A stretch of DNA of 37,141 nt from Akkermansiaceae bacterium (GCA_025362955.1 JANYFB010000338.1:1-37141), one strand, 5' to 3'. Positions 1 through 28,844 are shown, counted from the stretch's first letter. Notes: a model not told the origin generated them from the letters alone. Translations and numbers: made by a program.

Positions 1-3000
1 CAAAACATCGGGCGCGTGAATCTAACCGCCGATGGCGGTGACATCCGCGGCAATGGAACACTCAGCATGGCGGGCGACCTCGTGATGAAAGCCGCGCAGA
101 TCTATCCGACGACCCTCGCGAACTTCGACATCTTCGTTTACGATCACGCCGAAGGCACCGGTTCCGTTTCCATCAAAGCTTCCGGCACGAACAATGCCCC
201 GCTGTCCGCCGGTGGCAGCCTCTCCATCTACTCATCCTCCATCCATCAAGGGGGCGTGTTGCGTGCACCGCTGGGCACGATTCGGCTGGGCTGGGATGGC
301 GGGGACATCGACACGAGCGATGCGGATTTGGACGCGCCTCGGAATTTCATCGCCGGATCGACTATCGCCACCCCGGTCACGCTTGACGTGACTCTCACGG
401 ACGGGAGCTTGACCTCGGTTTCCGCCAAGGATCTGGAAATCCCCTTCGGCATTAGTCCGGACGGACTCACATGGATCGATCCGCGAGGCGTCAATGTCAC
501 CCTGTCTGGCCTGCCGGAAAAAGCGGTTTTCCTCTCGGCGGATAGCGTTACGATGGCTCCCGGGGCGACTGTGGATCTGCGCGGCGGTGGGGATCTTCTA
601 GCAACCCGCTGGATTCCTGGAAACGGCGGCAGCAAGGATCTTCTGGGAACCGCCTCTGCGGAATGGGGCGGCAGCACTATCTATCAGCCCGGTGCATTGG
701 TCACCTACCAAGGGGCAACCTGGTCCGCGCGAGTGAGACAAAGCGGGCAGACTCCGGGTTCCAATCTCTATTGGTCGAAGGTCGCGGAATCCTACGCCAT
801 TGTGCCGGGCTTCGACTCGAAATTTTCCCCGTTTGGTGCGTTCAACACTGGCTCGAATGCTGATTCGCTGGCGGGAAATCCAGGGTATGTGAGCAGCACG
901 CTGAAAATTGGCGACTCCATCACCTTGGAGGCGAGTGACGGACTTCCAGCAGGCACTTACACCCTGCTACCAAGGGCTTATGCGGTCCTCAAGGGCGCGT
1001 TTCTCGTGACGCCGGTCGCAGGCGTGGGGGGCGAGACGCTGAAGGCTGCCGACGGTGCCAGCTATGTCTCCGGATACGCCGCCAATTCCTTCAATTTACC
1101 CAACGAGACTTCTGCGGTGCGATCCCGATTTGAAATCGCGTCCGCGAAGGTCGTCATGAACCGGGTCACTTATGCGGTAGCTACGGCCGATGAGTTCGTC
1201 ACCGCCACGGGGGCCACGCAATTGATTCCCGCCGATGCGGGTTATGCCGCATTCCATGGCAATGTAACATTGCAGCTTGGCGGGAGTTTGCTCACCCAAT
1301 CCGAAGGGCGCGGTGCGGCGGTGGACATCAGTAGCTTCGCAGACATCACGCTGATCGGCAGCGGGGGTGACCCGGCAAGCACCGGCATTGCCCTGCAAAC
1401 GGCGGTCCTTGATTCTTGGGGCGTGGAAAGTCTGTTAATCGGCGGAGTTCGCACCAAGGGCGCAGACGGCACCACCATCGACGTCCGGACTTCCAATCTA
1501 ACATTGGATAATCCCGGCGATCTTTTCTCCGGTCAGGAAATCGTTCTCGCCTCTCGCGGTGGCCTGACTCTCACTGACGGATCCTCGATTGCATCGGCAG
1601 GGAAATCGGAAGCAGCGGCGGATACGTTTCTCATCCATGGCGACGGCACTCTGCTACGCGTGAGCAGCGATCCTGCAGCGACCGTCATTCGCGATGGGCT
1701 AACAGGTTCTACCTCGCCCTTGATGACGATCGGAGCAGCCGTGAAAATCGCGGGCCCTTCGGTGTTGTTAGACTCCACTTACGGCACGATTCTATCTGCC
1801 GAAGCCCGGATCGACGCGGAAAATCTCACCCTCGGCAGCGGACAGATTAGCGTCGTATTCGATGACGCCAACGGCGTGTTAGATGGTTCGTTGATCGACA
1901 ATCACCTGACCTTGGCTGGCTTGACGCTCGACAATGTGCAACAGGCCAAGGCGCTTACTTTGCACAGTTACCGCAGCATCGATTTTTATGGCACCGGCAG
2001 CATCGGCGGACCCGCGCTGGAGACGATCACTTTTTCCAGTAGTGGCGTCCGCGGCTATCAGCAAGGCACCGGTGCAGTGACGATCCGAGCCAATGACGTG
2101 CATTTTGATAACTCCGTGCTTGCGACGCCCGCCATCGCACCCGCAGTGAATTCGGGGAGTCTGAACGTGGTCACCGGAACGATTCACTTGGGTGCGAACG
2201 GGTTTGCGGTTGCAGGCTACCAAGATCTCTCGCTCGCTGCCTCTGACCGGATTTCCTTCGATGGAAATGGGACTTTTTCCACAACCGGGAATCTACAAAC
2301 TCTCACTCCGCTGATCGAAGGCGCGGATGCCGCCACCTATTCCATCGTCGCGGGAGGCACGGTCTCGCTCGACCGGAGCGGCACCACTCCGGCCATGGGA
2401 GGCGGACTCGGTGCCAACCTAACAATCCAAGGCACAAGCCTCAACGCGAATACCGACATCCTCCTTCCCAGTGGCCAAATTACTCTTCGCGCCATTGACG
2501 GCCCGCTTGAAGTCGGCGGCAATCTATCAGTCGCAGGCATCGCGAAGGTATTTAACGACCTCATCCGCTTCACCGATGCCGGAACGATCAATTTGGAATC
2601 GGTGACCGGCGATGTGACGCTTGCCGCCGGAAGCGATGTTTCCGTGGCCGCGTCCATGGTCGGTGGTAACGGCGGGACGGTCAGCGTGAGTGCGCCGGAA
2701 GGCATTTTCACCGATGACGGAAAAATGCACGGACAAGCCGGCGTTGGCGAGTTAGGCAGCGTCAGCGGCACCGCAGGAAAATTTCTGTTGGACGTGGGAT
2801 CGCTCACTGAAACGGGGTTGGCATCATTCGATGAAATCAGCATCGCGCTGGATAATGGAGGATTCACCGCCTCGCGAAGTTTCAGAATTCGCAACGGAGA
2901 CGTGACCATCGGCAATGTAAATCTCAGCCACGAATTTTCCCTATCAGCCGATCAAGGGGGCATCGCAGTCAGTGGCACGATCAACGCCTCCGGGCAAACC

Positions 3001-6000
3001 GGCGGCTCGATTTCCCTAGCAGCGCGGGACAGTCTCACCCTCGTGGCGGGTTCCGTTCTTAACGTCACTGGCCAGGATTTCAACACCGCCGGCAAAGGTG
3101 GCTCCATCCTCCTCGAAGCGGGAACCCAGCAGGACGGCATCGCCAACACCGAGGCCCTGCTCGATTTGCAATCCGGCTCGCAAATTCTCCTCGGCGTGAA
3201 CACCTACATTCCCGGCAGCTATACCACCCCCGGTTCCAGCGCCTTCGGAGGAAAATTCACCGGCACGCTTCATCTCCGCGCACCCCGCACCGCTGCGAAC
3301 GATGGCATCCAAATCAACGCGATCCAAAGCAACATCACCGGCGCTTCCGCCGTCGTCGCCGAAGGTTACAAAGTTTACACACCGCTGGGTGGAGTTCTGA
3401 ATACCGCCCAACGGGATCTGATCAACACCGACTCTATCAGCTTTCTCGGTGCGGCAGGCGTGGGGAACGCCAACGAAATCGCGATGCGTGGCAAGCTCCT
3501 CAACGGTGCCGGTAGCACTCTGGACTCGCTTCTGGTCATCAGCCCCGGCGTGGAAATGGTGAACCTCACTGGCGATCTCGTTCTCGGCCTCGCAAACAAT
3601 TCCGACTTCGGGTCCTCCGATCCCGAAGCTCTAACTGGTGCCGATTGGGATCTTTCCGGCTTCCGCTATGGGAGCCTCTCCGCGCCGGGCGTGCTAACCT
3701 TACGAGCCAGCGGGGACATCGTTTTTAATAATACTCTCAGCGATGGTTTCACTCCGGCTGATTTCAGTCTCGTGACCTTCGAAGACAGCGGGCATTCCCT
3801 GATGTGGCTTGGAAAATTGATGTCCATCTCGGACAGCCTTCTGCCCATCAACACCCAGTCATGGTCCTACCGCTTGACCGCAGGTGCGGATGTGAACGCC
3901 AGTAACTTCCGGAATGTCGTTTCCTCCACCGCACTCGATCTCACGCAGCCCTCAAAAGGCTCGGTCATTGTCGGTGAATTCTATCCAGCCGTGCCGAATC
4001 CTTCCTCATTCGATGTCTCCGCTGCGACAGGAAGCTCAGGCCAAACCGCTGACACCATCAAGATCTCGACCTTTTCCTTTAACCAGGGAACCCGCTACGA
4101 AGTGGTCCGCACCGGCACGGGAGATATCACCGTCAACGCCGGACGTGATGTGCAGCTCCGCAACCAATTCGCCACGATTTACACCGCCGGAGTGGCCTTG
4201 CCAGTACCCACCACGATTTATGGTGAAAATGACTTCGTCCTGCCAGTGATTCCAGATTCGGCAGAGAACCATCCGCTTCAGGGAGGATTCGGATCCACCT
4301 TGGGCGAAATCCAGCAAATCACCCAGCCTGCTTGGTCGATGGCGGGTGGGAACGTATCACTTCAAGCCCAAGCGAACATTGGCCGCTACACCTTAATCAA
4401 TGGCCTCCTCACCACCGATTCGAGCCGCCAAATGCCGACGAATTGGCTCTATCGCCGCGGATATGTAGATCCCAAAACGGGCCTCTTCGCCAGAGACGGA
4501 GGATTCGGCACTACCCCAAGCATTCAAAGCCCGGAAAACATCCACGATACCGCCACTTCCACAACTTGGTGGGTCGATTACAGCAACTTCTTCGAAGGCG
4601 TCGGCGCGCTCGGCGGCGGCAATGTGAGCTTGGTAGCTGGCAACGACATCGTGAATGTCGATGCCGTAGCTCCCACCAATGCGCGGATGCCCGGCCGAGA
4701 AAAAAATCCTGCCTACACGCCCGGTTCCACGACTGAACCCGAATATCTAAATCTGGCCCCCGATTCCACGAAACTCTTAGAACTTGGAGGCGGCGACGTC
4801 ACCGTGACGGCGGGCAGGAATATCGACGGTGGAGTTTATTATGTCGAGCGAGGCGAGGGTTCGTTGTTCGCCGGTGGCACTATCACCACCAATGCATCGC
4901 GGTCACCCTCGCTTGGAATTCTGAGCGGCTCCGCAGCGTTAGATCCGCTTACCTGGCTGCCGACGACCCTCTTTGTCGGGAAATCACATTTCGATGTCGC
5001 CGCGCGGGGTGACGTTCTGCTAGGTCCGGTCACCAATCCGTTTCTCCTTCCTCAGGGAATCAATAACAAGTTTTGGTATAAGACTTATTTCAACACCTAC
5101 TCGGCTGATGCTGGGGCCACTGTCTCGTCGTATGGTGGCGATGTGACCCATCGCAACGCGATCAATCTGCCAGACGGAGCCTCCGCCCGCCCGATCCTGA
5201 GTGCTTGGTTCAGTTCGCAAAATCTATTTACCGGAGAAGGTTCCTCGTCGAATGCCTCCAACTTCCAACCGTGGCTGCGTCTTGCGGAACTGGATCTAGC
5301 GAAATTTGGCCAAGTGTTTAAACTGAGCGCACCGAATCTCAGCAGCACCTCATTCGCGGGCGATGTGAATTTAGTCGGTAGTTGGACCTTGTTTCCTTCC
5401 GTCACTGGAAGCCTGGAGCTAGTTGCCGACGGCGGAATCATCGGACTGCAAGATACTGGCCCCGGTCGATCAAACGGCATCCCCAATCAAATTTGGACAT
5501 ACGCCAGCATCAACGTGTCTGACACATCCGCAGAATTGATCCCAGCCGTTACCTCGCCACTGGCCTATCAGGTCGTCGCAGGTCCGTCGCGGACGAATCA
5601 AACCCTCAGCGAATTAAATATCCTCCAAGCCCTAAGTCTCTCGCTCAGCGAAACAGGTTCCACCAAGGGAATCGCTGGCACCAGCGCGGTGAAACAGGCG
5701 CTCCATGCGGAATCGCTGCTTCATGCAGGTGATACGGAACCGGTGCGCATCTACGCTGCGGGCGGGGACATCACCGGCCTGACGCTGTTCTCGCCAAAAG
5801 CGGCGCGGATCATGGCCGACCAAGACATTACGGACGTCGCATTTTACCTGCAAAACGTTTCCGCAACGGATGTCTCGCTGGTCTCCGCAGGCCGCGATAT
5901 CATTCCCTTCAACGAAAACGGCTCCCTTCGCGCGCTTGCTGGAAACGTCGCCCTCGGCAACGTGGTGGGAGACAACCCGCGCAGCACGGTCACAGGAGAC

Positions 6001-7248
6001 CTCACCAATGCTCTAGCCGGAGATATCCAGATCAACGGCCCCGGAGTATTGGAAGTTCTCGGCGGGCGGAATCTTGACCTCGGTGCAGGCGCCAACTTCA
6101 CCGACGGCACTGGAGTGGGCATCACCAGCATCGGAAATGCCCGCAACCTGTCGTTGCCCTTTGCAGGCGCGGACATCATCGCGCTCGCCGGCGTCTCTGC
6201 GGCAGCCAGCTCGGGTGCTGCGGATGGACTCGCCTTGAGCGACATGGATTTCACCGCCTTTATCGAGAAATATGCCAAGCAGCTCGAAGATACGTCCGAT
6301 TCCGCCTACCTGAAAAAACTGCATTGGACCGGCAAATTCAGCGATCTCACCGAAGAACAGCAGGCGATTGTCGCCCTCGAGGAATTCTACGGAATTCTCC
6401 GCGAAACCGGCCGCGACGCTGCGGAAAAAGGCAATTACAAAACCGGCACCCAAGCCATCCACACCCTGTTCGGCAAGGACCAGCGCGTCGGTGAAATCCT
6501 CACCCGCGCCCGAGAAATCCGCACCACCACCGGCGGCACCATCAGCATCGGCGTTCCCGGCGGAGGGATTGCGATGGCCAATTCGATTTTCGGCAATCCA
6601 CTGACCCCTCCCGGCATTGTGACTGAATACGGCGGCTCGATTTCCACCTTCACCGACGGGGATGTTGAAATCGGCCAAGCCCGGATCTTCACCCTCCGCG
6701 GCGGTGACATTACGATGTGGTCGTCCCAAGGCAATATCGCCGCAGGCACCTCCCCCAAAACGGTGGTCACCGCGCCGCCCACACGGGTAGTCATCGACAT
6801 TTCCAGCGCCGACGTCCAAACCGACCTCGGTGGCCTCGCTACCGGCGGCGGCATCGGCGTCCTCGCTTCCGTCGAAGGCGTAAAAGCGGGTAACGTCGAT
6901 CTCATCGCTCCTAACGGATTTGTGGATGCGGGCGACGCAGGCATCCGGGTAACGGGGAACCTGAACATCTCCGCGCAAGTCGTCCTGAATTCCGGTAACA
7001 TCTCGGTAGGCGGCACGAGTGTGGGAGCCGCACCCGCCAGCGTCAGCGCGCCCAGTGTAGCCACGGTCACGGCAGCCGGAAACACCGCAGCCGCAGCCGG
7101 GGCAACGCTTCCCAAGCCGGGAGCCGAACAGCAACCGGATCAGAAGCCAGGCGCGGAAGCCTTGTCGATCATCACTGTGGAAGTCATCGGTTACGGCGGC
7201 GGCGGAGCGGACGAAGATGAGGATAAAAAGAAAGAACAGCCCCTCTAA
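1..7248 (+). CDS. Giant filamentous-haemagglutinin-like adhesin (DUF3739 type), 5' end missing
   Basis: The frame is open from base 1 and ends in TAA at 7246-7248, so about 2,415 C-terminal residues are visible and the signal peptide and TPS-type secretion domain lie outside the window. The protein is built of degenerate beta-helix repeats rich in G, S, T and N ('GGDVTVTAGRNI', 'GNVSLVAGNDI'). Family-typical blocks include 'TGTGDITVNAGRDVQLRNQF' (about 4118-4177) and the C-terminal 'IITVEVIGYGGG' near 7170-7203, which I recall from DUF3739 filamentous haemagglutinin proteins. It ends in a charged tail (DEDEDKKKEQPL) with no beta-barrel, so export probably needs a separate two-partner-secretion pore not seen here. 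A chitin-binding-type-3-like segment is embedded at about 661-789. A Sel1-repeat gene follows 10 bp later on the same strand. Role in surface adhesion is inferred from the family. Confidence 0.88.
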   Translation, partial: QNIGRVNLTADGGDIRGNGTLSMAGDLVMKAAQIYPTTLANFDIFVYDHAEGTGSVSIKASGTNNAPLSAGGSLSIYSSSIHQGGVLRAPLGTIRLGWDGGDIDTSDADLDAPRNFIAGSTIATPVTLDVTLTDGSLTSVSAKDLEIPFGISPDGLTWIDPRGVNVTLSGLPEKAVFLSADSVTMAPGATVDLRGGGDLLATRWIPGNGGSKDLLGTASAEWGGSTIYQPGALVTYQGATWSARVRQSGQTPGSNLYWSKVAESYAIVPGFDSKFSPFGAFNTGSNADSLAGNPGYVSSTLKIGDSITLEASDGLPAGTYTLLPRAYAVLKGAFLVTPVAGVGGETLKAADGASYVSGYAANSFNLPNETSAVRSRFEIASAKVVMNRVTYAVATADEFVTATGATQLIPADAGYAAFHGNVTLQLGGSLLTQSEGRGAAVDISSFADITLIGSGGDPASTGIALQTAVLDSWGVESLLIGGVRTKGADGTTIDVRTSNLTLDNPGDLFSGQEIVLASRGGLTLTDGSSIASAGKSEAAADTFLIHGDGTLLRVSSDPAATVIRDGLTGSTSPLMTIGAAVKIAGPSVLLDSTYGTILSAEARIDAENLTLGSGQISVVFDDANGVLDGSLIDNHLTLAGLTLDNVQQAKALTLHSYRSIDFYGTGSIGGPALETITFSSSGVRGYQQGTGAVTIRANDVHFDNSVLATPAIAPAVNSGSLNVVTGTIHLGANGFAVAGYQDLSLAASDRISFDGNGTFSTTGNLQTLTPLIEGADAATYSIVAGGTVSLDRSGTTPAMGGGLGANLTIQGTSLNANTDILLPSGQITLRAIDGPLEVGGNLSVAGIAKVFNDLIRFTDAGTINLESVTGDVTLAAGSDVSVAASMVGGNGGTVSVSAPEGIFTDDGKMHGQAGVGELGSVSGTAGKFLLDVGSLTETGLASFDEISIALDNGGFTASRSFRIRNGDVTIGNVNLSHEFSLSADQGGIAVSGTINASGQTGGSISLAARDSLTLVAGSVLNVTGQDFNTAGKGGSILLEAGTQQDGIANTEALLDLQSGSQILLGVNTYIPGSYTTPGSSAFGGKFTGTLHLRAPRTAANDGIQINAIQSNITGASAVVAEGYKVYTPLGGVLNTAQRDLINTDSISFLGAAGVGNANEIAMRGKLLNGAGSTLDSLLVISPGVEMVNLTGDLVLGLANNSDFGSSDPEALTGADWDLSGFRYGSLSAPGVLTLRASGDIVFNNTLSDGFTPADFSLVTFEDSGHSLMWLGKLMSISDSLLPINTQSWSYRLTAGADVNASNFRNVVSSTALDLTQPSKGSVIVGEFYPAVPNPSSFDVSAATGSSGQTADTIKISTFSFNQGTRYEVVRTGTGDITVNAGRDVQLRNQFATIYTAGVALPVPTTIYGENDFVLPVIPDSAENHPLQGGFGSTLGEIQQITQPAWSMAGGNVSLQAQANIGRYTLINGLLTTDSSRQMPTNWLYRRGYVDPKTGLFARDGGFGTTPSIQSPENIHDTATSTTWWVDYSNFFEGVGALGGGNVSLVAGNDIVNVDAVAPTNARMPGREKNPAYTPGSTTEPEYLNLAPDSTKLLELGGGDVTVTAGRNIDGGVYYVERGEGSLFAGGTITTNASRSPSLGILSGSAALDPLTWLPTTLFVGKSHFDVAARGDVLLGPVTNPFLLPQGINNKFWYKTYFNTYSADAGATVSSYGGDVTHRNAINLPDGASARPILSAWFSSQNLFTGEGSSSNASNFQPWLRLAELDLAKFGQVFKLSAPNLSSTSFAGDVNLVGSWTLFPSVTGSLELVADGGIIGLQDTGPGRSNGIPNQIWTYASINVSDTSAELIPAVTSPLAYQVVAGPSRTNQTLSELNILQALSLSLSETGSTKGIAGTSAVKQALHAESLLHAGDTEPVRIYAAGGDITGLTLFSPKAARIMADQDITDVAFYLQNVSATDVSLVSAGRDIIPFNENGSLRALAGNVALGNVVGDNPRSTVTGDLTNALAGDIQINGPGVLEVLGGRNLDLGAGANFTDGTGVGITSIGNARNLSLPFAGADIIALAGVSAAASSGAADGLALSDMDFTAFIEKYAKQLEDTSDSAYLKKLHWTGKFSDLTEEQQAIVALEEFYGILRETGRDAAEKGNYKTGTQAIHTLFGKDQRVGEILTRAREIRTTTGGTISIGVPGGGIAMANSIFGNPLTPPGIVTEYGGSISTFTDGDVEIGQARIFTLRGGDITMWSSQGNIAAGTSPKTVVTAPPTRVVIDISSADVQTDLGGLATGGGIGVLASVEGVKAGNVDLIAPNGFVDAGDAGIRVTGNLNISAQVVLNSGNISVGGTSVGAAPASVSAPSVATVTAAGNTAAAAGATLPKPGAEQQPDQKPGAEALSIITVEVIGYGGGGADEDEDKKKEQPL
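661..789 (+). other. CBM5/12 (chitin-binding type 3)-like segment inside the adhesin
   Basis: This stretch encodes W, then Y-x-x-G-x-x-V-x-Y-x-G-x-x-W, then a G-x-x-P-G turn and a final Y-W-x-x-V. The spacing of aromatics and glycines is that of small ChtBD3/CBM5/12 modules. It interrupts the beta-helix repeats. Carbohydrate binding is inferred from the pattern only. Confidence 0.5.
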
Positions 7249-7258
7249 AGAACGGGAT

Positions 7259-8131
7259 ATGAAATTCGCCCCATCTGTCATACTTCTGTTATTTTTCGGA
7301 ATCTCCGCCGCTGGGGCCGATGATCAAAAGCCCGCAGCCTCCGTGAACGATGGCGGGGAAGCCCAATTCCAACTTGGCCGGGCCTATCTGCGGGGTGAGG
7401 GAGTGCCCAAGGATGTGGAAAAGGCGCTGGAACTGATGAAATCCGCCGCCGCACAGGGAAATACCGAGGCGCTCGGAGGCGTCGGTTATTTTTACAGTAA
7501 CGGAATCGCCGTGCCCAAAGATGACAAACAAGCGACCGAATGGTTCCGCAAAGGCGCGGAAAAAGGGTCTGCCAAAGCACAGTTGAACTTGGGAAAAACC
7601 CTCCTTTCTAATAAAAAAGAAAGCGATTCCAAGGACAGCGATCCAATTCTCCAAGAAGCCTTGCAATGGATCAAAAAAGCCGCCGATCAAGGACTTCCCG
7701 AAGCCGGTTTAACTTACGCAAGAATTCTCTTCTACGGCGATTACGGCACATCAAAAGACTACGAGAAGGCTATCGATTATTTGAAGCCCGGTTGTGAAAC
7801 CGGGATTGCAGACGCCCAAAATATGCTCGGTGCCATGTATGAAGCCGGAAACGGAGTGTCCATGGATGTCGTCTCTGCCAAATCATGGTATCGCAAGGCT
7901 GCCATGCAGGGTTACGCCAAGGCCCAGAGAAATTTGGGAACCCTCATAGGGCCGCTGGTCGGGAACAAGGAGGACCGAATAGAAGCCTTAGCTTGGCTAT
8001 TGATCGCTTCCGATCAGCTCGATGTCCCGGCTCAGAAAACATTGGCCGACACGGTGCCGAGCCTGAAACCCGGAGAGCTGGACGACGCGAAACTCAAGGC
8101 ATCCGAGTTGCGGATGGCGTTGAAAAAATGA
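7259..8131 (+). CDS. Secreted Sel1-repeat (SLR) protein
   Basis: 290 residues. I chose the ATG at 7259 because it gives a clean signal peptide (MKFAPSVILLLFFGISAAGA, cleavage near residue 20). An upstream in-frame ATG at 7217 would overlap the adhesin and add a charged extension. The mature part consists of about five to six Sel1-type repeats of about 36 residues with the signature A-x-x-x-LG-x-x-Y-x-x-G-x-G-V-x-x-D ... A-x-x-W-x-x-x-A-A-x-x-G, for example 'AQFQLGRAYLRGEGVPKD' and 'AQNMLGAMYEAGNGVSMD'. Such alpha/alpha repeat proteins usually scaffold protein contacts in the periplasm. It starts 10 bp after the adhesin stop and is probably cotranscribed with it; a role in adhesin export or folding is possible but unproven. 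No enzyme motif is visible. Confidence 0.9.
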   Translation: MKFAPSVILLLFFGISAAGADDQKPAASVNDGGEAQFQLGRAYLRGEGVPKDVEKALELMKSAAAQGNTEALGGVGYFYSNGIAVPKDDKQATEWFRKGAEKGSAKAQLNLGKTLLSNKKESDSKDSDPILQEALQWIKKAADQGLPEAGLTYARILFYGDYGTSKDYEKAIDYLKPGCETGIADAQNMLGAMYEAGNGVSMDVVSAKSWYRKAAMQGYAKAQRNLGTLIGPLVGNKEDRIEALAWLLIASDQLDVPAQKTLADTVPSLKPGELDDAKLKASELRMALKK

Positions 8132-8175: not shown

Positions 8176-8766
8176 TCATTTTCCGTCCGTAGGCAATTGG
8201 GCCTCCAGCGCTGCGTGCAGGGTCATCTGGTTGTAGGCCTCCTCGCCAAATAGAGCGCGGTAAGTCTCGTTTGCCCGTTCACGCGCGCGTTCCACCGCAG
8301 GGCCAGGTTTGATCAAAATGGTATCCTCGTCAGAGGGCGCGGTATGGGAACCATCGGCGTTGGTTTCTCGGACGCTATCGGCCAAGTCTTGATAGAAGGT
8401 GGTGACGATCCCTCGCATGGCGGCTGCGATAGGAGGGGGCACTTTGGATCCAGGATCATTCTCCGCAGCATTGAGCGCGAGAATCACTGCCGGTAGCCGC
8501 ACTTCGTCAGACAATTGAATCCCGGGCGAGGACTTTGCAGGGGAGGATGGGGAAATTGATTTCGGTGATTCGTCAGCAGTCCGAATCCGCGAAAGTGAGT
8601 GGGCGGCTGTCCCGACTGGGACTTTGCCGCCTTGAGCTTGGCTTGGATTTCCTTGGTGCCCGGCTAGCGTGGAGTTTCGGTCACTGATCCCGGATTGTCG
8701 GATGATGAGGATGGCACAGAGGATGAGCAGAATGATGGCGGCCAAAGTCAGATAGGTGGAGCGCAT
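8176..8766 (-). CDS. Membrane-anchored hypothetical protein
   Basis: 196 residues. A single hydrophobic N-terminal segment (about residues 7-22, 'LTLAAIILLILCAILII') follows MRSTY and looks like an uncleaved signal anchor. After it comes a low-complexity linker rich in S, P, G and K to about residue 90, then a more ordered, probably helical C-terminal part containing 'AVERARERANETYRALFGEE'. I do not recognise the family. The gene is convergent with the Sel1 gene (44 bp between stops). It is separated from the next minus-strand gene upstream by a strong terminator hairpin, so it is probably its own transcription unit. No Shine-Dalgarno sequence is seen before the ATG. Confidence 0.7.
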   Translation of the reverse strand: MRSTYLTLAAIILLILCAILIIRQSGISDRNSTLAGHQGNPSQAQGGKVPVGTAAHSLSRIRTADESPKSISPSSPAKSSPGIQLSDEVRLPAVILALNAAENDPGSKVPPPIAAAMRGIVTTFYQDLADSVRETNADGSHTAPSDEDTILIKPGPAVERARERANETYRALFGEEAYNQMTLHAALEAQLPTDGK

Positions 8767-8902: not shown

Positions 8903-10243
8903 TTACGGGGCAACCGTGCCACCATCGGCTGGACGGCCGACGTGCATGCCGGAGATTGGAAGCCCTGCTGCGGCAAAGTATGCGGGAAGCGCAGCCTTGA
9001 TGGTGGTATAGACGCTATCCACGTCACTTCCGGGGGCGACATCGTTACGCATATACATGTTTTCGTAGCCCCACGCGGTGTAGGTGCCTTCGACGATTTT
9101 TTTCACGTCGTTGTTTCCAAGGTCGATTCCGCCAGCCGCGATTTCCGACAGAGTCACGCCGTTGTAGCCGATGAGCGAGCCACCTAAATTGCGAAGTTTA
9201 ATGGCATCACTAACCCCAAGCCAGCTCACAAGATCGGCTTTGATGCCGCTGAGAACCGTGCTGCCCGCAGCGTTCAAAACATTGACCGAAGCACCCTTGT
9301 TGCCCATGTCCGTGGCCACGGTGCCGCCGCTGCTGTAGCCGCCATTGCCTGCCAAGTCTTGTCCCCAAACGGTGGAGGCGTAAGCAACGTTGACGCCGAC
9401 GCCGCCCTGTGGAACCAAACGAATCGAGGTGAGTTGGTCTCCAGAAGCCGCCGTCACCACATATTGTTTGACGGTTTTGACAATGCCGAAGCCAGTTTCC
9501 GCCAGATAGGTGGTGCGGGTGCCGGAACCGTCGTTACGACCTGTTGCGAACACATAGCCTGCGTTTGCGCCCGGAGTGTCACCGTCTGGATTGTCGTTCA
9601 CATTGTTGGTGAACATGCTGCGAGGTTGAAGACCGCCGCTCATCAGGGCGCGGAATTGTTGGCTTGTCACGTTGGTGATTGCCGATCCGTCGTTAGTGAC
9701 CATCGAGAAGACGATTACGCCAGCAGCAGGTGAGCCGGGCAGAAGGGAGAATGAACCATAGGGCGTCGAAGCCTTGCTAACATCCGAGAAAGCAATGTGG
9801 GAGGTGGCTGTCTCCACGTTACCTGAAGCGGTGCTCAATGCGGCATACTCTTTCCCGCCGTCGGTCGGGGAACCCCCGGTCAGCAAGTTGGTTTTGTAAT
9901 ATTTTGGAGGCAGGGGATCTGTGACTCCGACTAAGGAACGAATGCCTTCTACCGAGCCACTGAAGGTGCAGCGGATGGTGGTGGTGCCGGGGACACCCGG
10001 AAAGTTACCGCTGAAGATCGCGGTGGTGGCAAGGGGGTTGCTTGCGTTCAAATCGCCAGTGACGCCGTTGTGGCCATACTTATAGTCCACGCCGCCGTTT
10101 CCGACGTCATATTTCGCTTTAATCGCGATGAAGGCCGAGGCACGGAACGCGGTGGCTCCGGTGATGTTGACTTCCACGTCGGCATATGCGGTGGCGGTGA
10201 AGGCGATGGCGGAGAGTCCCGCGATGAAGTATTTAGGTTTCAT
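8903..10243 (-). CDS. Periplasmic substrate-binding protein, PstS-like
   Basis: 446 residues with a signal peptide (MKPKYFIAGLSAIAFTATAYA, cleavage after AYA). The mature protein opens with 'VNITGATAFRASAF'. The middle has 'NVTSQQFRALMSGG', resembling the PstS 'lt..ql..If.G' segment, and then 'GRNDGSGTRTTYL', which matches the phosphate-loop S-G-T-R motif of PstS-type proteins. These point to a type-2 periplasmic-binding fold; the ligand may be phosphate or something else. No permease or ATPase genes are nearby, so an ABC-importer role is not supported by context. It lies 40 bp downstream of a PEP-CTERM gene and is probably cotranscribed with it, ending at the terminator at 8800-8827. The leader is A/C-rich with no Shine-Dalgarno. 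Confidence 0.68.
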   Translation of the reverse strand: MKPKYFIAGLSAIAFTATAYADVEVNITGATAFRASAFIAIKAKYDVGNGGVDYKYGHNGVTGDLNASNPLATTAIFSGNFPGVPGTTTIRCTFSGSVEGIRSLVGVTDPLPPKYYKTNLLTGGSPTDGGKEYAALSTASGNVETATSHIAFSDVSKASTPYGSFSLLPGSPAAGVIVFSMVTNDGSAITNVTSQQFRALMSGGLQPRSMFTNNVNDNPDGDTPGANAGYVFATGRNDGSGTRTTYLAETGFGIVKTVKQYVVTAASGDQLTSIRLVPQGGVGVNVAYASTVWGQDLAGNGGYSSGGTVATDMGNKGASVNVLNAAGSTVLSGIKADLVSWLGVSDAIKLRNLGGSLIGYNGVTLSEIAAGGIDLGNNDVKKIVEGTYTAWGYENMYMRNDVAPGSDVDSVYTTIKAALPAYFAAAGLPISGMHVGRPADGGTVAP

Positions 10244-10283: not shown

Positions 10284-11174
10284 TCAAGCGGAACGACGGC
10301 GACGGCGGAGCACGAGTGCCCCAGCAGCCAAGCCGATCATGGCAGTGGATGAGGGTTCAGGAACGAGGAAGGAAACGACGCCATCGGTGCCAACAGTCAC
10401 GTTCCCTTCAAAGGAACCGGCACGAAGGGCACCAGGAACTTGTCCGGCGGCATTCGTCTTGGCGAGAACTCGATAGAGGTCGAGCGAGAACTCAACGCTT
10501 CCGACGTCTCCAGCGTAGGTGCCGAACGCGGTGGCGCTGCCCTTTTGCTGAATACCGCCTTGAAGGCTGTTCATCGCGGTGCCTTGGATGCCAGCGGTTA
10601 GGAACGGATTTTGATCGTCGATTTGCGAAATACTTGTTAGAGAGATGGTGACCTGTGCGTTGTATTGGGTTGCAAAGACATTGTTTTGTGATTGAATGCC
10701 AGAAGCTGCCTCTGTCATACCGTTGTTGTTTGTCATATCCCGTGCGGTCGAACTCGCCGATCCGACGGTTCCGACCGTATTGCGTGCTGCGGAAACATAC
10801 AGCGTGCGGTCAGGATCGCCGCCGGGGTCGACAGAGGAACCCAAAGATTCCGTGCTGTAAACGCCAGCAAGACCGGCGTAGATCGAAGGATCAGTTGCCC
10901 AGTTGGCACCGAAAGCGCTGACCAAGGTGGAACTGAGATTAAGAATGTTACCTTGGGTCAGCGAACCTTGGCCAGCGGTTCCTGCGGCAGATCCGCGATA
11001 GAGCGTCGCTGCGTTGCCGAGATCGGCATAAATGGTGTTAGTGCCTCCCTCTTGTTGGAAGAAGAGCACGAGATCGCCAGGTGCGTAGAACGAATTGGCC
11101 GCGGTGGCTGGGAAGGCCGCCAAGATGGACGCCGACGCCATGACCAAGGCGTAACGTTTGATGTGGTGTTTCAT
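10284..11174 (-). CDS. PEP-CTERM protein, paralogue 1 of a three-gene family
   Basis: 296 residues. A signal peptide (about residues 1-26, ending PATAA) is followed by the shared family module starting 'FYAPGDLVLFFQ' and including 'NTIYADLGNAATLYRG', 'IYAGLAGVY', 'ISQIDDQNPFL' and 'VEFSLDLYRVLA'. The last 26 residues are a textbook PEP-CTERM sorting signal: VPEPSS, a hydrophobic helix, then RRRRRSA. Such tails are processed by an exosortase (established knowledge); no exosortase is in this window. It is divergent from paralogue 2 and shares the 399-bp region between them. The function of the shared module is unknown to me. The start codon is preceded by an A-rich leader with no Shine-Dalgarno. 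Confidence 0.9.
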   Translation of the reverse strand: MKHHIKRYALVMASASILAAFPATAANSFYAPGDLVLFFQQEGGTNTIYADLGNAATLYRGSAAGTAGQGSLTQGNILNLSSTLVSAFGANWATDPSIYAGLAGVYSTESLGSSVDPGGDPDRTLYVSAARNTVGTVGSASSTARDMTNNNGMTEAASGIQSQNNVFATQYNAQVTISLTSISQIDDQNPFLTAGIQGTAMNSLQGGIQQKGSATAFGTYAGDVGSVEFSLDLYRVLAKTNAAGQVPGALRAGSFEGNVTVGTDGVVSFLVPEPSSTAMIGLAAGALVLRRRRRSA

Positions 11175-11312
11175 GGTGATTTAGTTTTTGTCGATTGGTG
11201 TGTGTTGCCGTTAGAACTTCGAGCGGGTTGTCCAAGACATGATCAACTCATGATTCGTCACCCCTTTCAGCCTCGCGAGGATGGCCATCGAGCACTTTGT
11301 TCGTATGTTTTT

Positions 11313-11343
11313 CATGTGAATATTTCGTCACTCTAGTCACGTC
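11313..11343 (-). promoter_or_regulatory. GTGACGA element upstream of paralogue 1
   Basis: On the minus strand this reads GTGACTAGAGTGACGAAAT, with the core at 11331-11325, about 157 bp before the start codon at 11174. It resembles the element before paralogue 2 (GTGATTAGGTGACGAATT). The same core also occurs closer to the gene at 11261-11255. Confidence 0.5.
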
Positions 11344-11399
11344 CGCTCTCGATTTGGCTTCCGCCCAGATTTTGCGTTTCGGCAAGCTGACACTTCGAT

Positions 11400-11423
11400 A
11401 GTGATTAGGTGACGAATTCGTTG
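11400..11423 (+). promoter_or_regulatory. GTGACGA element upstream of paralogue 2
   Basis: The core GTGACGAATTCGT begins at 11409, 165 bp before the start codon at 11574. The following ~40 bp align to the region after the paralogue 3 element with about two thirds identity by eye, and both are followed by a second inverted repeat. Confidence 0.5.
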
Positions 11424-11573
11424 CATTGCCGGATTTGCCGGGAGTTCGGCATTTCATAGCCTCCCGGCGGCTTCTGAAATTCACGGAGGCAAGACGGCAC
11501 CTACAGCCCATGTGGGACAACCTCATCTACGCTTGGATCCAAGTTCGAAAAACCAAATCCTCATTTACCCAAC

Positions 11574-12833
11574 ATGAAACGCATTCTAACTACCATCTCT
11601 TTAGCGGTCAGCCTGACCGCAACTACCGCCCACGCGCAAAACGCTTTCTATGCGCCGGGGGATCTCGTCCTGTTCTTCCAAAAACCCGGCAATACCAATA
11701 CAATTTACGCCAATCTCGGCAATGCCGCCACGGTTTTCCGCGGCGCTGCGGCGGGACCAGACGGTGCCAATAAAGTGGAATTCCTCAATTTAAGCGCCAC
11801 TCTAACATCCGCATTTGGCGCGGGTTGGGCAAGCGACCCGGACATCTATGCGGGCCTTGCCGGTGTTTACGACGACAGTTCCCTCGGCTCCACCCTCAAA
11901 GACGGAGACCCGGCCCGCACCCTGTATGTTTCAGCGTCACGCAGTGCCGTGGGAACCGTCGGCTCGGCGAATTCGACCGCGCGGGACATGTTCAATCCTG
12001 GCAGCAACGCAATGACAGACGCCGCCTCAGGTATCATTTCACAAAACAATGTGTTGGAAACCAGTTACAGCACACAAGTTGCCGTCTCCCCTACGAGCAT
12101 TTCGCAAATCGACGACCAGAATACATTCCTCAGCCCGGGAATTCAAGCGGCCGCCATGGGTGGCAACCTTGACGGTGGAATCCAACAGCGCGGCAGCGCA
12201 ACGAGCTTCGGCACCTTCGGGTATGCCGGCTCGGTGGAATTCGCCCTAGATCTCTATCGAGTCCTTGCCAAGAACACCATCTCGGGACAAGTCGGGGGAA
12301 GTCTCCGCGTAGGCTCTTTTGAAGGAACTGTGACCGTGGGGACCAATGGTAAGGTATCCTTCCTTACCCCTCCCACAGGTTACGATACGTGGGTGCTCGG
12401 ATTCCCTGCGCTGGATACGGATGCCAAAAGAATGCCTTCAGCAGATCCTGACAACGATGGCATGTCCAATCTCATGGAGTTTGTGCTCACCAGCGACCCC
12501 GGAGTATCAAGCCAGTTTAATAGCTCGGGTCAGTCTTATCTGCCAACCGTCGATACTTCGGGAACTAGCTGCGTTTTTACATTTAGACGCAAGGACATCT
12601 CAGAAACTAACTCGACCCTCCATTTTCAGTATGGCAACAGTCTGACGAGCTGGACCGACTTCACCCTTGCCGGCTCAAATGGAGGCTCAGGCACATCTTC
12701 CTATACCGCGGGGCCTGCATCTTACACCGTCCAAGGGAACGGCAGCAATGCAGATAAGATCGTAGTCACAGTCCCTAAAAGCGCCGTGATCGGTGACAAG
12801 CTCTTCGGGCACCTCAAAGTTACCCGCCCCTAA
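11574..12833 (+). CDS. Secreted protein, paralogue 2, with TSP3-like C-terminal module
   Basis: 419 residues. A signal peptide (residues 1-21, ending AHA) is followed by the shared family module ('FYAPGDLVLFFQKPG', 'NTIYANLGNAATVFRG', 'ISQIDDQNTFL', 'VEFALDLYRVLAKN', to about residue 265). In place of a PEP-CTERM tail it has a different C-terminus: W-x-x-G-F, then an acidic D-x-D-x-D-G-x-x-N-x-x-E-F motif ('ADPDNDGMSNLMEF', about residue 290) like thrombospondin-type-3 calcium sites, then about 110 residues including 'FTFRRKD' and 'YGNSLTSWTDF'. This type of C-terminus recurs in secreted verrucomicrobial proteins (from memory) and may be a surface-sorting module. It is followed 215 bp later by paralogue 3 in the same orientation. 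The leader is A/C-rich with no Shine-Dalgarno. Confidence 0.88.
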   Translation: MKRILTTISLAVSLTATTAHAQNAFYAPGDLVLFFQKPGNTNTIYANLGNAATVFRGAAAGPDGANKVEFLNLSATLTSAFGAGWASDPDIYAGLAGVYDDSSLGSTLKDGDPARTLYVSASRSAVGTVGSANSTARDMFNPGSNAMTDAASGIISQNNVLETSYSTQVAVSPTSISQIDDQNTFLSPGIQAAAMGGNLDGGIQQRGSATSFGTFGYAGSVEFALDLYRVLAKNTISGQVGGSLRVGSFEGTVTVGTNGKVSFLTPPTGYDTWVLGFPALDTDAKRMPSADPDNDGMSNLMEFVLTSDPGVSSQFNSSGQSYLPTVDTSGTSCVFTFRRKDISETNSTLHFQYGNSLTSWTDFTLAGSNGGSGTSSYTAGPASYTVQGNGSNADKIVVTVPKSAVIGDKLFGHLKVTRP

Positions 12834-13048
12834 TGGGCCTCCTCGGCCGATTCTGCCAGAAGCTCAAGACTTAGTCAGACTCCAAAAGCCGCAATGTGAC
12901 GATTTCGTCATATTGTTAGGGTTGCCCGGAACTTGCGTTCTTCAAGAACCTGTCTCCCTATTGATGGGTGCTGCGACCTTCCTCACAATGCTTGAAATGC
13001 CATTAATTCCCTCTTCGCCTGAAAAGATTTAATTACTATAAAACGATC
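12834..13048. promoter_or_regulatory. Intergenic regulatory region before paralogue 3
   Basis: 215 bp without a gene. It holds a near-symmetric element TGACGATTTCGTCA (12897-12910; 6-bp arms, 2-bp centre) that includes the GTGACGA core at 12896-12902, 153 bp before the paralogue 3 start. A second inverted repeat, GTTCTTCAAGAAC, lies at 12937-12949. The last 30 bp before the ATG are A/T-rich. No good terminator for paralogue 2 is visible. Confidence 0.55.
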
Positions 13049-14239
13049 ATGAAAAATATATCATCCCTATCTCTATCCTCAATGGCTGTTGCGGTTTGCC
13101 TTGCTGCTACTGCCGCCAATGCTCAAAACACGAACTACTCACCGGGAGATCTGGTGCTGTTTTTTCAAAAACAAGGAGGCGGTAATACAATCTATGCAAA
13201 TCTCGGTAATGCCGCCATTAAATATCGCGGTGGCGCTACGGGATCTGCCGATGGGGCGAATCAAGTCCAATTCCTAAACATCAGTGCCGAGCTGACCAGC
13301 GCCTTCGGCCCCGGGTGGGCCAGCGACCCGACGGTTTATGCCGGTCTTGCCGGAGTATGGGGAACCGATGTTCTCGATAAAGTTACTCTTCAGAACAAAG
13401 ATCCCAACCGCACTCTTTACATATCGAAGTCGAGAACCTCAGTTGGTACAGTGGGATCAGCGGGTTCCACTCAATGGGATTTAACCCTAGCAGGTAATAC
13501 CGCGATGAGTTCCGCTTCTTCTGGAATTGAGGCGATGAATAATGTGCTTGAAGTCTCATACACCACACCGACTGCGGTAGTGACTACAGTTACCTCCCAA
13601 ATTGATGATCAAAATCCGTTCATTGCTCCGGGTATTCAAGGCTCTGCGATGTCTAACGCGCTTGAGGGTGGAGTCCAGCAGGCGGGAACGTCGTCCAGCT
13701 TCGGCGAGTTCGGTGCCGCAGGAAATGTTGAATTCGCACTCGATCTCTACCGCGTGCTGGCGGTTAACACCGCTCCCGGCCAGGTCAGCGGTGAGGTCCG
13801 CATCGGCTCCTACGAAGGAACCGTTACCGTGGACAGCAGCGGCCTTGTGTCCTTCATCGCCCAGGCATCCGCCGTCCCCGAGGCGGAGATTTCCGTTCAG
13901 CAACCCGTCGGCAGCGAATTGGTGGATAACAAGGGCAAAAAAAGTTTTGGCACCGTTACTGTGGGGAATACCGGAACCGGTAAAACCTTCACCATTAAAA
14001 ACACAGGTAGCGCCAATCTAACTGGTATCAGCATCACTAAATCAGGTGCGGATCTCAGCAACTTCATTGTGACGGCGCCGGGTCAAACTTCATTGACCCC
14101 CAATGCCTCCACCACGTTCAAGGTGAGCTTCAAGCCCAAGGGCCTCGGAACCCGCACCGCAACGCTCCACGTCCACAGTAATGATGCGGACGAAGCCAGC
14201 TTTGAGATCAAACTTGCCGGTTCCGGCGCAGCTAACTGA
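13049..14239 (+). CDS. Secreted protein, paralogue 3, with choice-of-anchor-D/Ig-like C-terminal domain
   Basis: 396 residues. A signal peptide (about residues 1-25, ending ANA) precedes the shared family module ('YSPGDLVLFFQKQGGGNTIY', 'VYAGLAGVWG', 'SQIDDQNPFI', 'VEFALDLYRVLAVN'). After 'GLVSFI' the sequence runs through AVPEAE, reminiscent of the VPEP start of a PEP-CTERM tail. It then continues into a domain of about 110 residues with 'SFGTVTVGNTGTGKTFTIKN', 'LTGISITKSGAD' and 'RTATLHVHSNDADE', the pattern of choice-of-anchor-D/ASPM-SPD-2-Hydin-like Ig folds. It ends LAGSGAAN with no hydrophobic anchor, so it may be secreted or held by another domain. It converges on aat with 5 bp between stops. 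Confidence 0.88.
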   Translation: MKNISSLSLSSMAVAVCLAATAANAQNTNYSPGDLVLFFQKQGGGNTIYANLGNAAIKYRGGATGSADGANQVQFLNISAELTSAFGPGWASDPTVYAGLAGVWGTDVLDKVTLQNKDPNRTLYISKSRTSVGTVGSAGSTQWDLTLAGNTAMSSASSGIEAMNNVLEVSYTTPTAVVTTVTSQIDDQNPFIAPGIQGSAMSNALEGGVQQAGTSSSFGEFGAAGNVEFALDLYRVLAVNTAPGQVSGEVRIGSYEGTVTVDSSGLVSFIAQASAVPEAEISVQQPVGSELVDNKGKKSFGTVTVGNTGTGKTFTIKNTGSANLTGISITKSGADLSNFIVTAPGQTSLTPNASTTFKVSFKPKGLGTRTATLHVHSNDADEASFEIKLAGSGAAN

Positions 14240-22817: not shown

Positions 22818-24167
22818 ATGAGCGCGGAAATTTGTGATCGAAATCACCGGCGCCCTGTCGGAATTGACCTTTTCGCTGGAGCAGGTGGCATGTCCCTGGG
22901 TTTCGAGCAAGCTGGCTTCCATGTCGCTGCCGCCGTTGAAATCGATCCGATCCACGCTTGCATTCATCACTTCAATTTTCCTCACTGCGCAGTCATTCCA
23001 AAGTCCGTGAAAGAGGTGACTGGCGATGAAATCCGCTCCATTGCGGGTATTTCGGGGAAGGTGGATGTCGTCTTCGGTGGTGCCCCGTGCCAAGGCTTTT
23101 CCATGATCGGGAAACGGGTTCTCGACGATCCCCGCAACAGCTTGGTCAAGGATTTCGTGCGGATCGTGACCGAGCTCGACGCGGATTATTTCGTCTTTGA
23201 AAATGTGAAAGGACTAACCGTAGGAACCCACCGCAAGTTCCTTGAGGAATTGATCGAAGCCTTTGAGTCACACGGCTATAATATACGCCTTCCTTGGTCC
23301 GTCTTGAACGCCGCTTCATACGGAGTTCCACAAGACAGGAAACGGTTGTTTCTGCTAGGCGCGAAAAACGGTTGCCAAGTCCCATACTATCCAAGCCCCA
23401 CGACGACCCGCGCGGAAAGACACCCGGAAGTCAGGTTGAATCACGGCCCCACTTGTAGAGACGCACTTGATGATCTCCCCGACGCAGACCGTTTCAGAAC
23501 CTTGCAGGGAGACGACGAAGTGAGCACGAGGGCATGGGGAGAACCTTCTCCTTATGCCAGGGAAATGCGCTGTCTTGATCAATCCTCATGGCACTTCGGC
23601 CTCCCTCGTCTCTGGAATCCCGGCCTGCTAACATCGAGCGCCCGCACGATCCATTCTGAAATTTCACGCCTCCGCTTCACTCAAACGGAACCAGGCACCG
23701 TGGAACCGATCTCGCGCTTTTTCAAACTCTCTCCCACCGGCGTATCTAACACCCTGAGGGCCGGGACGGATGCCGCCCGCGGGGCTTTCACCAGTCCCCG
23801 ACCGATTCACTACCGGCATGACCGTTGCGTGACTGTTCGTGAAATGGCACGGTTGCATGGATTTCCAGATTGGTTCCGTTTCCACCGCACGAAATGGCAC
23901 GGAGCGCGGCAAATCGGCAATGCCGTTCCACCACCTTTAGCCCGAGCGGTCGCATCATCGATCATTGAGGCATTGGGAATTACACCGCAATGCGAATCAA
24001 TTCCTGTTCCGTTAGGCGATCCGGCGTTGCTCTCCATGGAAATGTCACATGCCGCCGCCTTCTGGGGCGTGGACAGTCCGATTCAAAAACGGGATCGTAA
24101 AAGTGGTGCAAAAAAGCGTTCGCAAATCGAAACGGAAGCAGCCCGCCTGTCTGGAATCGCCATCTAA
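22818..24167 (+). CDS. DNA (cytosine-5-)-methyltransferase of a type II-like R-M pair
   Basis: 449 residues. It transfers a methyl group from SAM to C5 of cytosine in a specific DNA site. C5-MTase motifs appear in order: motif I 'GIDLFAGAGGMSLGFEQAGF' (from about residue 15), motif II region 'AAVEIDP', motif IV 'GGAPCQGFSMIGKR' with the catalytic Cys in the PCQ loop, motif VI 'ENVKGL', motif VIII 'QDRKRLFLLG', motif IX 'REMARLHGFPDWF' and motif X 'RQIGNAVPPPLARAVASSI'. About 160 residues between motifs VIII and IX hold the target-recognition region; the site cannot be read from sequence. A ~60-residue tail after motif X is rich in K and R. The putative endonuclease gene starts 5 bp after its stop. 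Confidence 0.96.
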   Translation: MSAEICDRNHRRPVGIDLFAGAGGMSLGFEQAGFHVAAAVEIDPIHACIHHFNFPHCAVIPKSVKEVTGDEIRSIAGISGKVDVVFGGAPCQGFSMIGKRVLDDPRNSLVKDFVRIVTELDADYFVFENVKGLTVGTHRKFLEELIEAFESHGYNIRLPWSVLNAASYGVPQDRKRLFLLGAKNGCQVPYYPSPTTTRAERHPEVRLNHGPTCRDALDDLPDADRFRTLQGDDEVSTRAWGEPSPYAREMRCLDQSSWHFGLPRLWNPGLLTSSARTIHSEISRLRFTQTEPGTVEPISRFFKLSPTGVSNTLRAGTDAARGAFTSPRPIHYRHDRCVTVREMARLHGFPDWFRFHRTKWHGARQIGNAVPPPLARAVASSIIEALGITPQCESIPVPLGDPALLSMEMSHAAAFWGVDSPIQKRDRKSGAKKRSQIETEAARLSGIAI

Positions 24168-24172
24168 TCCTC

Positions 24173-24976
24173 ATGAAGGAAAAGCAGCCCAATCGTTACC
24201 AAGCCCTCGTTGCCGACGTATTTTTCCATTCCTACAAAAAGGGCGCATCAACCGTAGCCTTCACTCGCGAGGAGCTGATAGCGACCGCGACCAAGCTCGG
24301 AATCGTGGTTCCAAAAAATGCGGGAGATATCATTTATTCATTTCGCTATCGGAATCCTCTACCGGATCAAATTCTCAAAACCCAACCCACAAACAGGGAA
24401 TGGGTCATTGAAGGCGCGGGCAGGGCAATGTATGAATTCAGACTCGTCGCGATCAACCGCGTCGCTCCGAACCCGAATCTCATCACGATCAAAATCCCCG
24501 ATGCCACGCCAGAAATCATCACCTGCAATTCCCTTTCCGACGAACAAGCCCTGCTAGCCCGTGTTCGCTACAACAGACTCATCGACATCTTCCTCGGCGT
24601 CACCGCCTACTCGCTTCAAAACCATCTCCGCACCACGGTGAAAAGTCTCGGACAGATCGAGATCGACGAGGTTTACGTCGGCATCGACCGCCATGGCTGC
24701 CAATATATCATCCCGGTACAGGCGAAGGGCGGGAGCGATCAACTTTCCACAGTCCAAGCGAAACAGGACATCGCTTGCTGCGCCGAAAAATTTCCAAATC
24801 TGGTCTGCCGCGCGATCTCCGCCCAATTCATGGACGATTCGCGGATTGCGATGTTCGAGCTGTGCCTTGATGAGGACGGCCTCGTGAAAACCGTGGACGA
24901 GCGGCATTATTTTCTCGTCGCTGCGGATCAAATCGGAGTCGCCGACCTTGAGCGTTACCGCAAATCAGCACGGTGA
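24173..24976 (+). CDS. Putative type II restriction endonuclease (PD-(D/E)XK-like)
   Basis: 267 residues. I do not recognise a named family. The C-terminal half contains 'IEIDEVYVGIDRHGCQYIIP' followed by VQAKGG, which fits the pattern D/E-x(n)-(E/Q)-x-K of PD-(D/E)XK nucleases: an acidic residue in IEIDEVYVG and the Q-A-K catalytic strand (about residues 161-186). The N-terminal part ('TREELIATATKLGIVVPKNA', then 'GDIIYSFRYR') may be a DNA-binding helical domain. Position is strong support: it starts 5 bp after a C5-methyltransferase on the same strand, the usual compact R-M arrangement. Cleavage and specificity are inferred. No upstream C-protein gene is visible. Confidence 0.72.
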   Translation: MKEKQPNRYQALVADVFFHSYKKGASTVAFTREELIATATKLGIVVPKNAGDIIYSFRYRNPLPDQILKTQPTNREWVIEGAGRAMYEFRLVAINRVAPNPNLITIKIPDATPEIITCNSLSDEQALLARVRYNRLIDIFLGVTAYSLQNHLRTTVKSLGQIEIDEVYVGIDRHGCQYIIPVQAKGGSDQLSTVQAKQDIACCAEKFPNLVCRAISAQFMDDSRIAMFELCLDEDGLVKTVDERHYFLVAADQIGVADLERYRKSAR

Positions 24977-28753: not shown

Positions 28754-28844
28754 AACAATTTGAAAGGAAAGGAAGCCACATTGTTCCTCGGTGAAAATCA
28801 TTGTCAAATCAGGAAACCCGCCCGCTTTGCCGTTGGCCCGAGAT

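Follow-up and report, generated by a model that had tools for sequence, protein, structure and literature searches.

What would three neighbouring genes do with one shared N-terminal module and three different C-termini? The question is raised by genes A, B and C, which occupy positions 10,284 to 14,239 of a 37,141-nucleotide stretch of DNA (here called the window) from an Akkermansiaceae bacterium (GCA_025362955.1 JANYFB010000338.1:1-37141). Comparative analyses point to a probable answer, namely that these genes encode the modules of a surface locus induced by phosphate limitation in the Verrucomicrobiota, in which a display module is carried on interchangeable tails. The three genes are:

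10284..11174, minus strand: gene A, with a signal peptide, the shared module (10365-11174) and a PEP-CTERM tail (10287-10364)
11574..12833, plus strand: gene B, with a signal peptide, the shared module (11574-12365) and an acidic tail of about 155 residues (12366-12830)
13049..14239, plus strand: gene C, with a signal peptide, the shared module (13049-13858) and a choice-of-anchor-D / ASPM-SPD2-Hydin Ig-like domain (13859-14236)

An initial annotation of the window had recognised all three open reading frames at these coordinates and described them as adjacent, which they are, with the correction that A is transcribed from the minus strand, away from B and C. The motifs it gave as common to them (GDLVLFFQ, NTIYAxLGNAA, SQIDDQN and LDLYRVLA) are present in each, and the likeness ends where it had placed the point of divergence, at G-x-VSF(L/I), after a module of about 265 residues. 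Each product begins with a signal-peptide-like stretch. Over about 240 residues the modules of A and B are 70% identical, those of B and C 65%, and those of A and C 56%, and since searches within the bacterium's own genome gave E-values of 1e-95 to 1e-97, the likeness reflects homology and not chance. The 3.9-Mb assembly contains no further copy. The module found no convincing match in Pfam, NCBIfam or PDB sequences and, as far as such comparisons reach, is a family absent from the descriptions in Pfam and NCBIfam. Structure prediction, proposed in the initial annotation as a check, gave a confident AlphaFold model (pLDDT 92.6, pTM 0.91) consisting of several strands and one 21-residue helix. 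Compared with PDB and with the viral models of BFVD, its best Foldseek E-values were 1.3 and 1.0, and VIA returned no chains with Z≥2; the module is a candidate new fold, a missing structural match not being proof of novelty.

The three tails differ in how much can be said of them. PEP-CTERM is a known sorting signal, processed by exosortase, and the tail of A exceeds the curated cut-offs for it (PF07589, 22.8 bits against 20.7; TIGR02595, 28.4 against 16). The protein combines a signal peptide, the PEP motif, hydrophobic stretches at the N- and C-terminus and an Arg cluster, and an exosortase is encoded in the same genome (PF09721, 157.7 bits; TIGR02602, 129.2 against a cut-off of 105.6). The tail of C is choice_anch_D (NF012200, 62.9 bits against a cut-off of 45; PF22544, 40 bits), a domain seen beside varied anchors and itself not a demonstrated anchor, and the protein ends without a recognisable anchor. 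Both of these identifications, PEP-CTERM and choice-of-anchor-D/Ig-like, had been made in the initial annotation; its third, a TSP3-like module on B, is not borne out by the family models, the tail of B having no family match at all and none to TSP3 at E≤1 in Pfam or NCBIfam. Within its roughly 155 residues there is a single DPDNDG calcium-loop-like motif. At E≤1 the B-type tail occurs at 18 places in the genome, B included (the best others 49–51% identical), among them unrelated large proteins on contigs C270, C329 and C62. It appears to be a generic C-terminal module, and is a candidate for a generic sorting or anchoring domain of the Verrucomicrobiota. A subtilase-like protein at 26858-28807 of the window ends in the same kind of tail start, DPDGDGLDN, in shortened form. 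The description of the tails as three attachment or sorting modules is supported for PEP-CTERM, with its exosortase, and unsupported for the acidic and choice-of-anchor-D tails.

How far, then, do module and tails travel together? A first search, with one module as query, found matches in 26 of 99 related genomes, mostly as two or three adjacent copies. Of 236 genomes of the class, 38 were found to have the module by a profile built from 40 modules (alignment A3), and among 289 genomes drawn from the whole phylum it was confined to its own class, with few matches in that sample; by these searches it is a Verrucomicrobiota family. Most loci hold one PEP-CTERM copy, and about 20 also have at least one copy with another tail: acidic tails of about 150 residues (several subtypes), one to three choice-of-anchor-D domains, Ig-like repeats (the longest such open reading frame being 2074 residues) or tandem modules. 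The tails are thus of many kinds, and range from about 80 to 1800 residues. Tandem modules share a single open reading frame in genome G020 (L045:622-2574), and in G006 they stand at contig ends (L040:4889-6799 and L041:3-1142) that look like one gene with at least three modules. A single clade of PEP-bearing modules was rejected (approximately unbiased test, p=2.7e-108; within the genus, p=2.8e-4). In module trees many loci have, as sisters, copies that differ in their tails, and the sister copies of G035 and G050 (support 99–100) bear an acidic and an Ig tail. On these trees, tails change among orthologous module copies. The swap after duplication proposed in the initial annotation therefore stands as a pattern, in that the tails do not follow the module phylogeny and the tabulation of C-termini it had suggested gives several tail types, not one; monophyly of the window's three modules, on which it also leaned, is neither supported nor rejected (p=0.31).

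The pattern may have begun with tail capture or with old conversion of the modules. A possible, if unlikely, history is that the modules of an ancestral pair, one PEP-CTERM and one acidic-tailed, were kept alike by recurrent gene conversion, the tails staying unswapped in most lineages; this would be compatible with any of the functional readings discussed here. It is favoured by the sister relationship of PEP-CTERM and acidic copies in L023, L036, L042, L043, L044, L049, L051 and the window's A and B, and by the retention of tails between close species (L046/L047, L058/L059). Third codon positions of module pairs within a locus, however, are only 35–58% identical and near saturation, so that the duplications or tail events must be old, and no sign of recent conversion is visible in them. 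The differing tails of the G035 and G050 sisters also speak against this history, as does the tail of B, which is 44% identical to that of an unrelated protein of its own genome and 45% to that of a module copy in G038.

The connection with phosphate begins with the gene next to A:

8903..10243, minus strand: divergent secreted protein of the PstS type, whose gene follows A after 40 bp

This protein has no Pfam match. A PstS-like homologue adjoins the module in 56 of 69 loci, and a PstS-like gene is present in 37 of the 38 module-bearing genomes but in only 19 of the 198 that lack the module (Fisher p=6e-28; same 236 genomes). Searched against PDB, the family profile finds PstS1 (4exl, E=2.5e-11), and the AlphaFold model (pLDDT 89.4) matches 4lat with a Foldseek E-value of 4.7e-9 and a VIA Z of 24.1 (root-mean-square deviation 2.6 over 254 residues), which places the protein in the PstS fold. 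At an R-x3-SGT loop and an Asp, which we take from the E. coli phosphate-binding protein to be phosphate-contact positions, R (R234) and G (G239) occur in 56 of 56 members, S (S238) in 46, T in 39 and the Asp (D152) in 45, and R241 is also invariant. Given the profile, the structural match and these residues, the product is a divergent PstS-type protein, which may bind phosphate. The canonical pstS-pstC-pstA operon of the bacterium lies elsewhere, on contig C33, and there are no pst permease genes around 8903-10243. Genome G038 has, besides its main locus, a second and divergent module/PstS-like locus (L081, G038:C32), and at L080:3242-5614 in G233 a module with PEP-CTERM and a PstS-like protein share one 791-residue frame, for which gene fusion, misassembly or read-through would each be an explanation.

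Is there also a regulatory link? Upstream of module genes the genus has TGACGAA and GTGACGA as its commonest 7-mers, and these are the halves of a palindrome, AATGTGAC-N6-GTCACATT (quoted here as TGTGAC-N6-GTCACA), which precedes module genes and the gene for TpsA, a giant protein described below. Upstream of module genes TGAC-N6-GTCA occurs 17 times, as against 0.45 in shuffles (maximum 3 in 300), and inverted TGAC/GTCA halves at spacings other than N6 never exceed three occurrences. The bacterium's own genome was scanned for TGTGACNAWWTNGTCACA with up to two mismatches, chance expectation being calculated for uniform bases; nine places were found where 3.5 were expected, and none with the reversed control. 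At up to one mismatch there are three sites where 0.16 would be expected, and they lie upstream of the porinO/P-pstS-pstC-pstA operon (C33), a response regulator gene (C174) and gene C, and nowhere else. The C33 promoter has a second site, with two mismatches. The C174 regulator, which is accompanied by a PhoR-like kinase, has PhoB as its best NCBIfam match, below the model cut-off. Two-mismatch sites lie, among other places, between the divergent genes A and B and in the promoter of TpsA on contig C277. The sites in the window are:

11315..11332: palindromic operator candidate with two mismatches to TGTGACNAWWTNGTCACA, in the promoter region from which A and B diverge, 141 nt before A
11409-11421: partial palindrome site GTGACGAATTCGT in the A/B promoter region
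12895..12912: palindromic operator candidate with one mismatch, TGTGACGATTTCGTCATA, 137 nt before gene C

Among six related genomes, scanned at up to one mismatch, the palindrome precedes phoBR in G030, G038, G050, G055 and G290 (reversed control 0), porinO/P-pstS-pstC in G030, G050 and G055, and a gene for a glycosyltransferase-metallophosphoesterase fusion in G030 and G050. Such fusions, behind the palindrome, are seen at L162:2872-4899 (G030), L168:503-2560 (G050) and L037:14629-16611 (G035). The fusion protein holds both domains of Agt-PlcP, the lipid-remodelling pair of phosphorus-starved bacteria (PMC4796936), and by its domain content seems to be Agt-PlcP-like, a fused form of that phosphorus-limitation pair. 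Some sites in G030 have no obvious partner gene, and four near-identical palindromes AGTGACAATTTCGTCACA in that genome (L157, L158, L160 and L161) lie near contig ends, with no phosphate gene seen; they are perhaps a single repeat element split by assembly. The company the palindrome keeps suggests that it could be the Pho operator of this lineage. Classical Pho boxes are direct repeats, and such repeats, every 11 nt, are not enriched upstream of module genes; nor does the CRP box fit, since the TGTGA and TCACA halves of the palindrome are spaced 8 and not 6. No Pho operator was found described for this Verrucomicrobiota lineage in the literature searched.

The third connection is with a two-partner-secretion (TPS) system, of which the window holds one side:

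1..7248, plus strand: giant filamentous-haemagglutinin-like TpsA, C-terminal part of about 2415 residues (PF12545, 100 bits)
7217..8131, plus strand: Sel1-repeat (TPR-like) protein (PF08238, 131 bits), same cluster in 20 loci
8176..8766, minus strand: small protein with a hydrophobic N-terminal stretch, no Pfam match, same cluster in 10 loci

All three are neighbours conserved across the class, and the last is probably a small secreted protein. The N-terminal 1201 residues of TpsA are found on contig C277 of the same genome, together with ExbB, ExbD, TonB, Porin_5 and a coiled-coil protein. The two pieces align to successive parts of one homologous open reading frame, and TpsA is the sole DUF3739 protein in the genome. 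It appears, by comparison with relatives, that the locus is split between C277 and the window, which starts inside TpsA. The complete further neighbourhood, as seen in G050, comprises a peptidyl-prolyl isomerase (PPIase), the coiled-coil protein, Porin_5 (651 bits), TonB, ExbD, ExbB and TpsB, with ExbB of the locus carrying DUF2341 and LamG domains. The locus is also present in a metagenome-assembled genome named Chthoniobacter flavus. TpsB of relatives is recognised by PF03865 (55.9 bits) and PF08479 (54.7 bits) in L109; TpsB with TpsA, the pair that defines type Vb secretion, is thus seen in relatives, and TpsA in the bacterium itself. The families PF16930 and PF12545 had no match in 14 control genomes, and this locus was not found described in the literature on TPS/ExbB or on PEP-CTERM/exosortase. 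Farther along the window, at 22818-24976, a C5 DNA methyltransferase is recognisable by eye (DLFAGAGGMSLGFEQAGF), followed by an open reading frame that may be its restriction partner.

Comparable loci are known from pseudomonads. The sigma-VreI/PUMA3 locus of P. aeruginosa contains lapA/lapB, pdtA, pdtB, exbB2-exbD2-tonB4, the PA0696 porin, PA0697 and the PpiC gene PA0699 (PMC7035377), and its pdtA and pdtB-exbB2-exbD2-tonB4-porin-PPIase set depends on PhoB and phosphate starvation (PMC7035377, PMC4971064). In the verrucomicrobial locus, too, TpsA, TpsB, ExbB, ExbD, TonB, a putative porin and a PpiC-type PPIase lie together, and near them a secreted protein of DING/PstS-like type, in a comparison of gene content read from papers; the PUMA3 locus is linked to phosphate limitation. 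Unlike PUMA3, the verrucomicrobial loci add the Sel1 protein and module genes with PEP-CTERM and other tails, have DUF2341/LamG on ExbB, show no adjoining Hxc type II genes, and have a palindrome as operator candidate in place of the direct-repeat Pho box before the TPS genes. In P. fluorescens, Psp, a secreted PstS-like DING protein, is encoded beside a 4083-residue haemagglutinin gene (PMC2225411), and this phosphate-limitation-induced locus shares with the present one a PstS-like secreted protein next to a haemagglutinin-domain gene of more than 4000 residues. Psp is of the DING type and is secreted by Hxc, whereas the window protein is nearest to the PstS1 type (Z 24.1 to 4lat, as against about 16 to DING structures) and its gene has no type II neighbour. 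Among PEP-CTERM/exosortase proteins (TIGR02595, PF07589) gene A is typical in having the full tail signature and a genomic exosortase, but many module loci also hold copies without PEP-CTERM. ZepA, a zinc-binding PEP-CTERM exoprotein with conserved zinc-binding histidines and a Zur-linked context (PMC10957091), is similar in being secreted, in having a nutrient role and in occurring in Planctomycetes–Verrucomicrobia–Chlamydiae (PVC) bacteria. As a relative of the module it can be set aside on its description, there being no conserved histidine in alignment A3 and a different context.

From these computational observations we infer how the locus may be regulated by phosphate, where its proteins would lie, what ligand they might bind and what the module might do. 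When phosphate is scarce, a PhoBR-type regulator acting at the TGTGAC-N6-GTCACA operator would turn on together porinO/P-pstS-pstC-pstA, phoBR, the Agt-PlcP-like lipid remodelling of relatives, and this locus. The locus would export the giant filamentous TpsA via TpsB, with a porin, a PPIase and ExbB-ExbD-TonB as energiser alongside. To this it would add a secreted binding protein of the PstS type and the display module, in several copies. These copies would be held in different ways, one as a PEP-CTERM/exosortase substrate and others by acidic, Ig-like or choice-of-anchor-D tails, and repeated exchange of tails with the module kept would place the same binding or assembly surface at different distances or sites. 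The modules, the TpsA fibre and the PstS-like protein would cooperate at the surface, where their job is probably to catch phosphate or phosphorylated material and hold the cell to it, near the porin. More tentatively, the combination could amount to an extracellular phosphate-capture apparatus under a non-classical palindromic Pho operator, made of a Verrucomicrobiota-specific module with a fold absent from solved structures, on interchangeable tails (one an exosortase signal), together with a PstS-like protein and a fibre exported by energised two-partner secretion.

Several points weigh against the phosphate-limitation reading. Its support consists of sequence and predicted structures, and some members of the PstS-like family lack the Asp or Ser presumed to contact phosphate. 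The operator candidate, as an inverted repeat, is unlike the direct-repeat Pho box, and its binder may be other than PhoB. The motif was partly derived from module promoters, that of gene C included, though none of the pst, phoBR and PlcP sites was among them. The A/B site differs from it at two positions, and chance alone would give about three sites of that kind. No operator was identified immediately upstream of the PstS-like gene, which may be read from the promoter of A. TpsB was not located in this genome, where the contig ends at ExbB.

Could the locus then serve adhesion or a surface matrix, unrelated to phosphate, with biofilm- or exopolysaccharide-associated modules and a PstS-like protein that has lost phosphate binding and become a structural partner? 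PEP-CTERM proteins have been linked to exopolysaccharide (PMC1569441) and TpsA proteins are often adhesins (PMC5422565), the Ig-like, choice-of-anchor-D and tandem-module extensions resemble stalks, and the PstS-like family is too divergent for Pfam. This explanation is doubtful, however, in view of the same rare palindrome before pst, phoBR and Agt-PlcP-like genes, and of the invariant Arg and Gly in the R-x3-SGT loop. No more probable is the reading of the initial annotation, that the tails send one display domain to three destinations, for although PEP-CTERM is a sorting signal with an exosortase at hand, sister modules exchange tails, and the B-type tail is seen again on several large proteins of this genome besides B, nothing indicates sorting or anchoring by the acidic or choice-of-anchor-D tails, and tails of so many kinds and lengths would equally suit spacers or extra binding domains. 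Of that overall interpretation, the part concerning tails stands partly; it included neither the secretion locus with its PstS-like partner nor the shared palindrome.

On the phosphate-limitation reading, the locus is of a known kind, a phosphate-starvation TPS locus with a PstS-like partner, and what is new is the undescribed module family that it carries. PEP-CTERM proteins have been known for 20 years, and few functions have been assigned to them. One large PEP-CTERM family would now be assigned to a particular nutrient response, along with a candidate operator, a secretion system and a named partner protein, and a Pho operator is proposed for this lineage of the Verrucomicrobiota. The phosphate-starvation TPS/ExbBD/TonB/porin cluster of Pseudomonas, in which several genes are of unknown function, would be extended to another phylum, and its conserved partners there hint that the whole cluster may serve the capture of phosphate at the cell surface.

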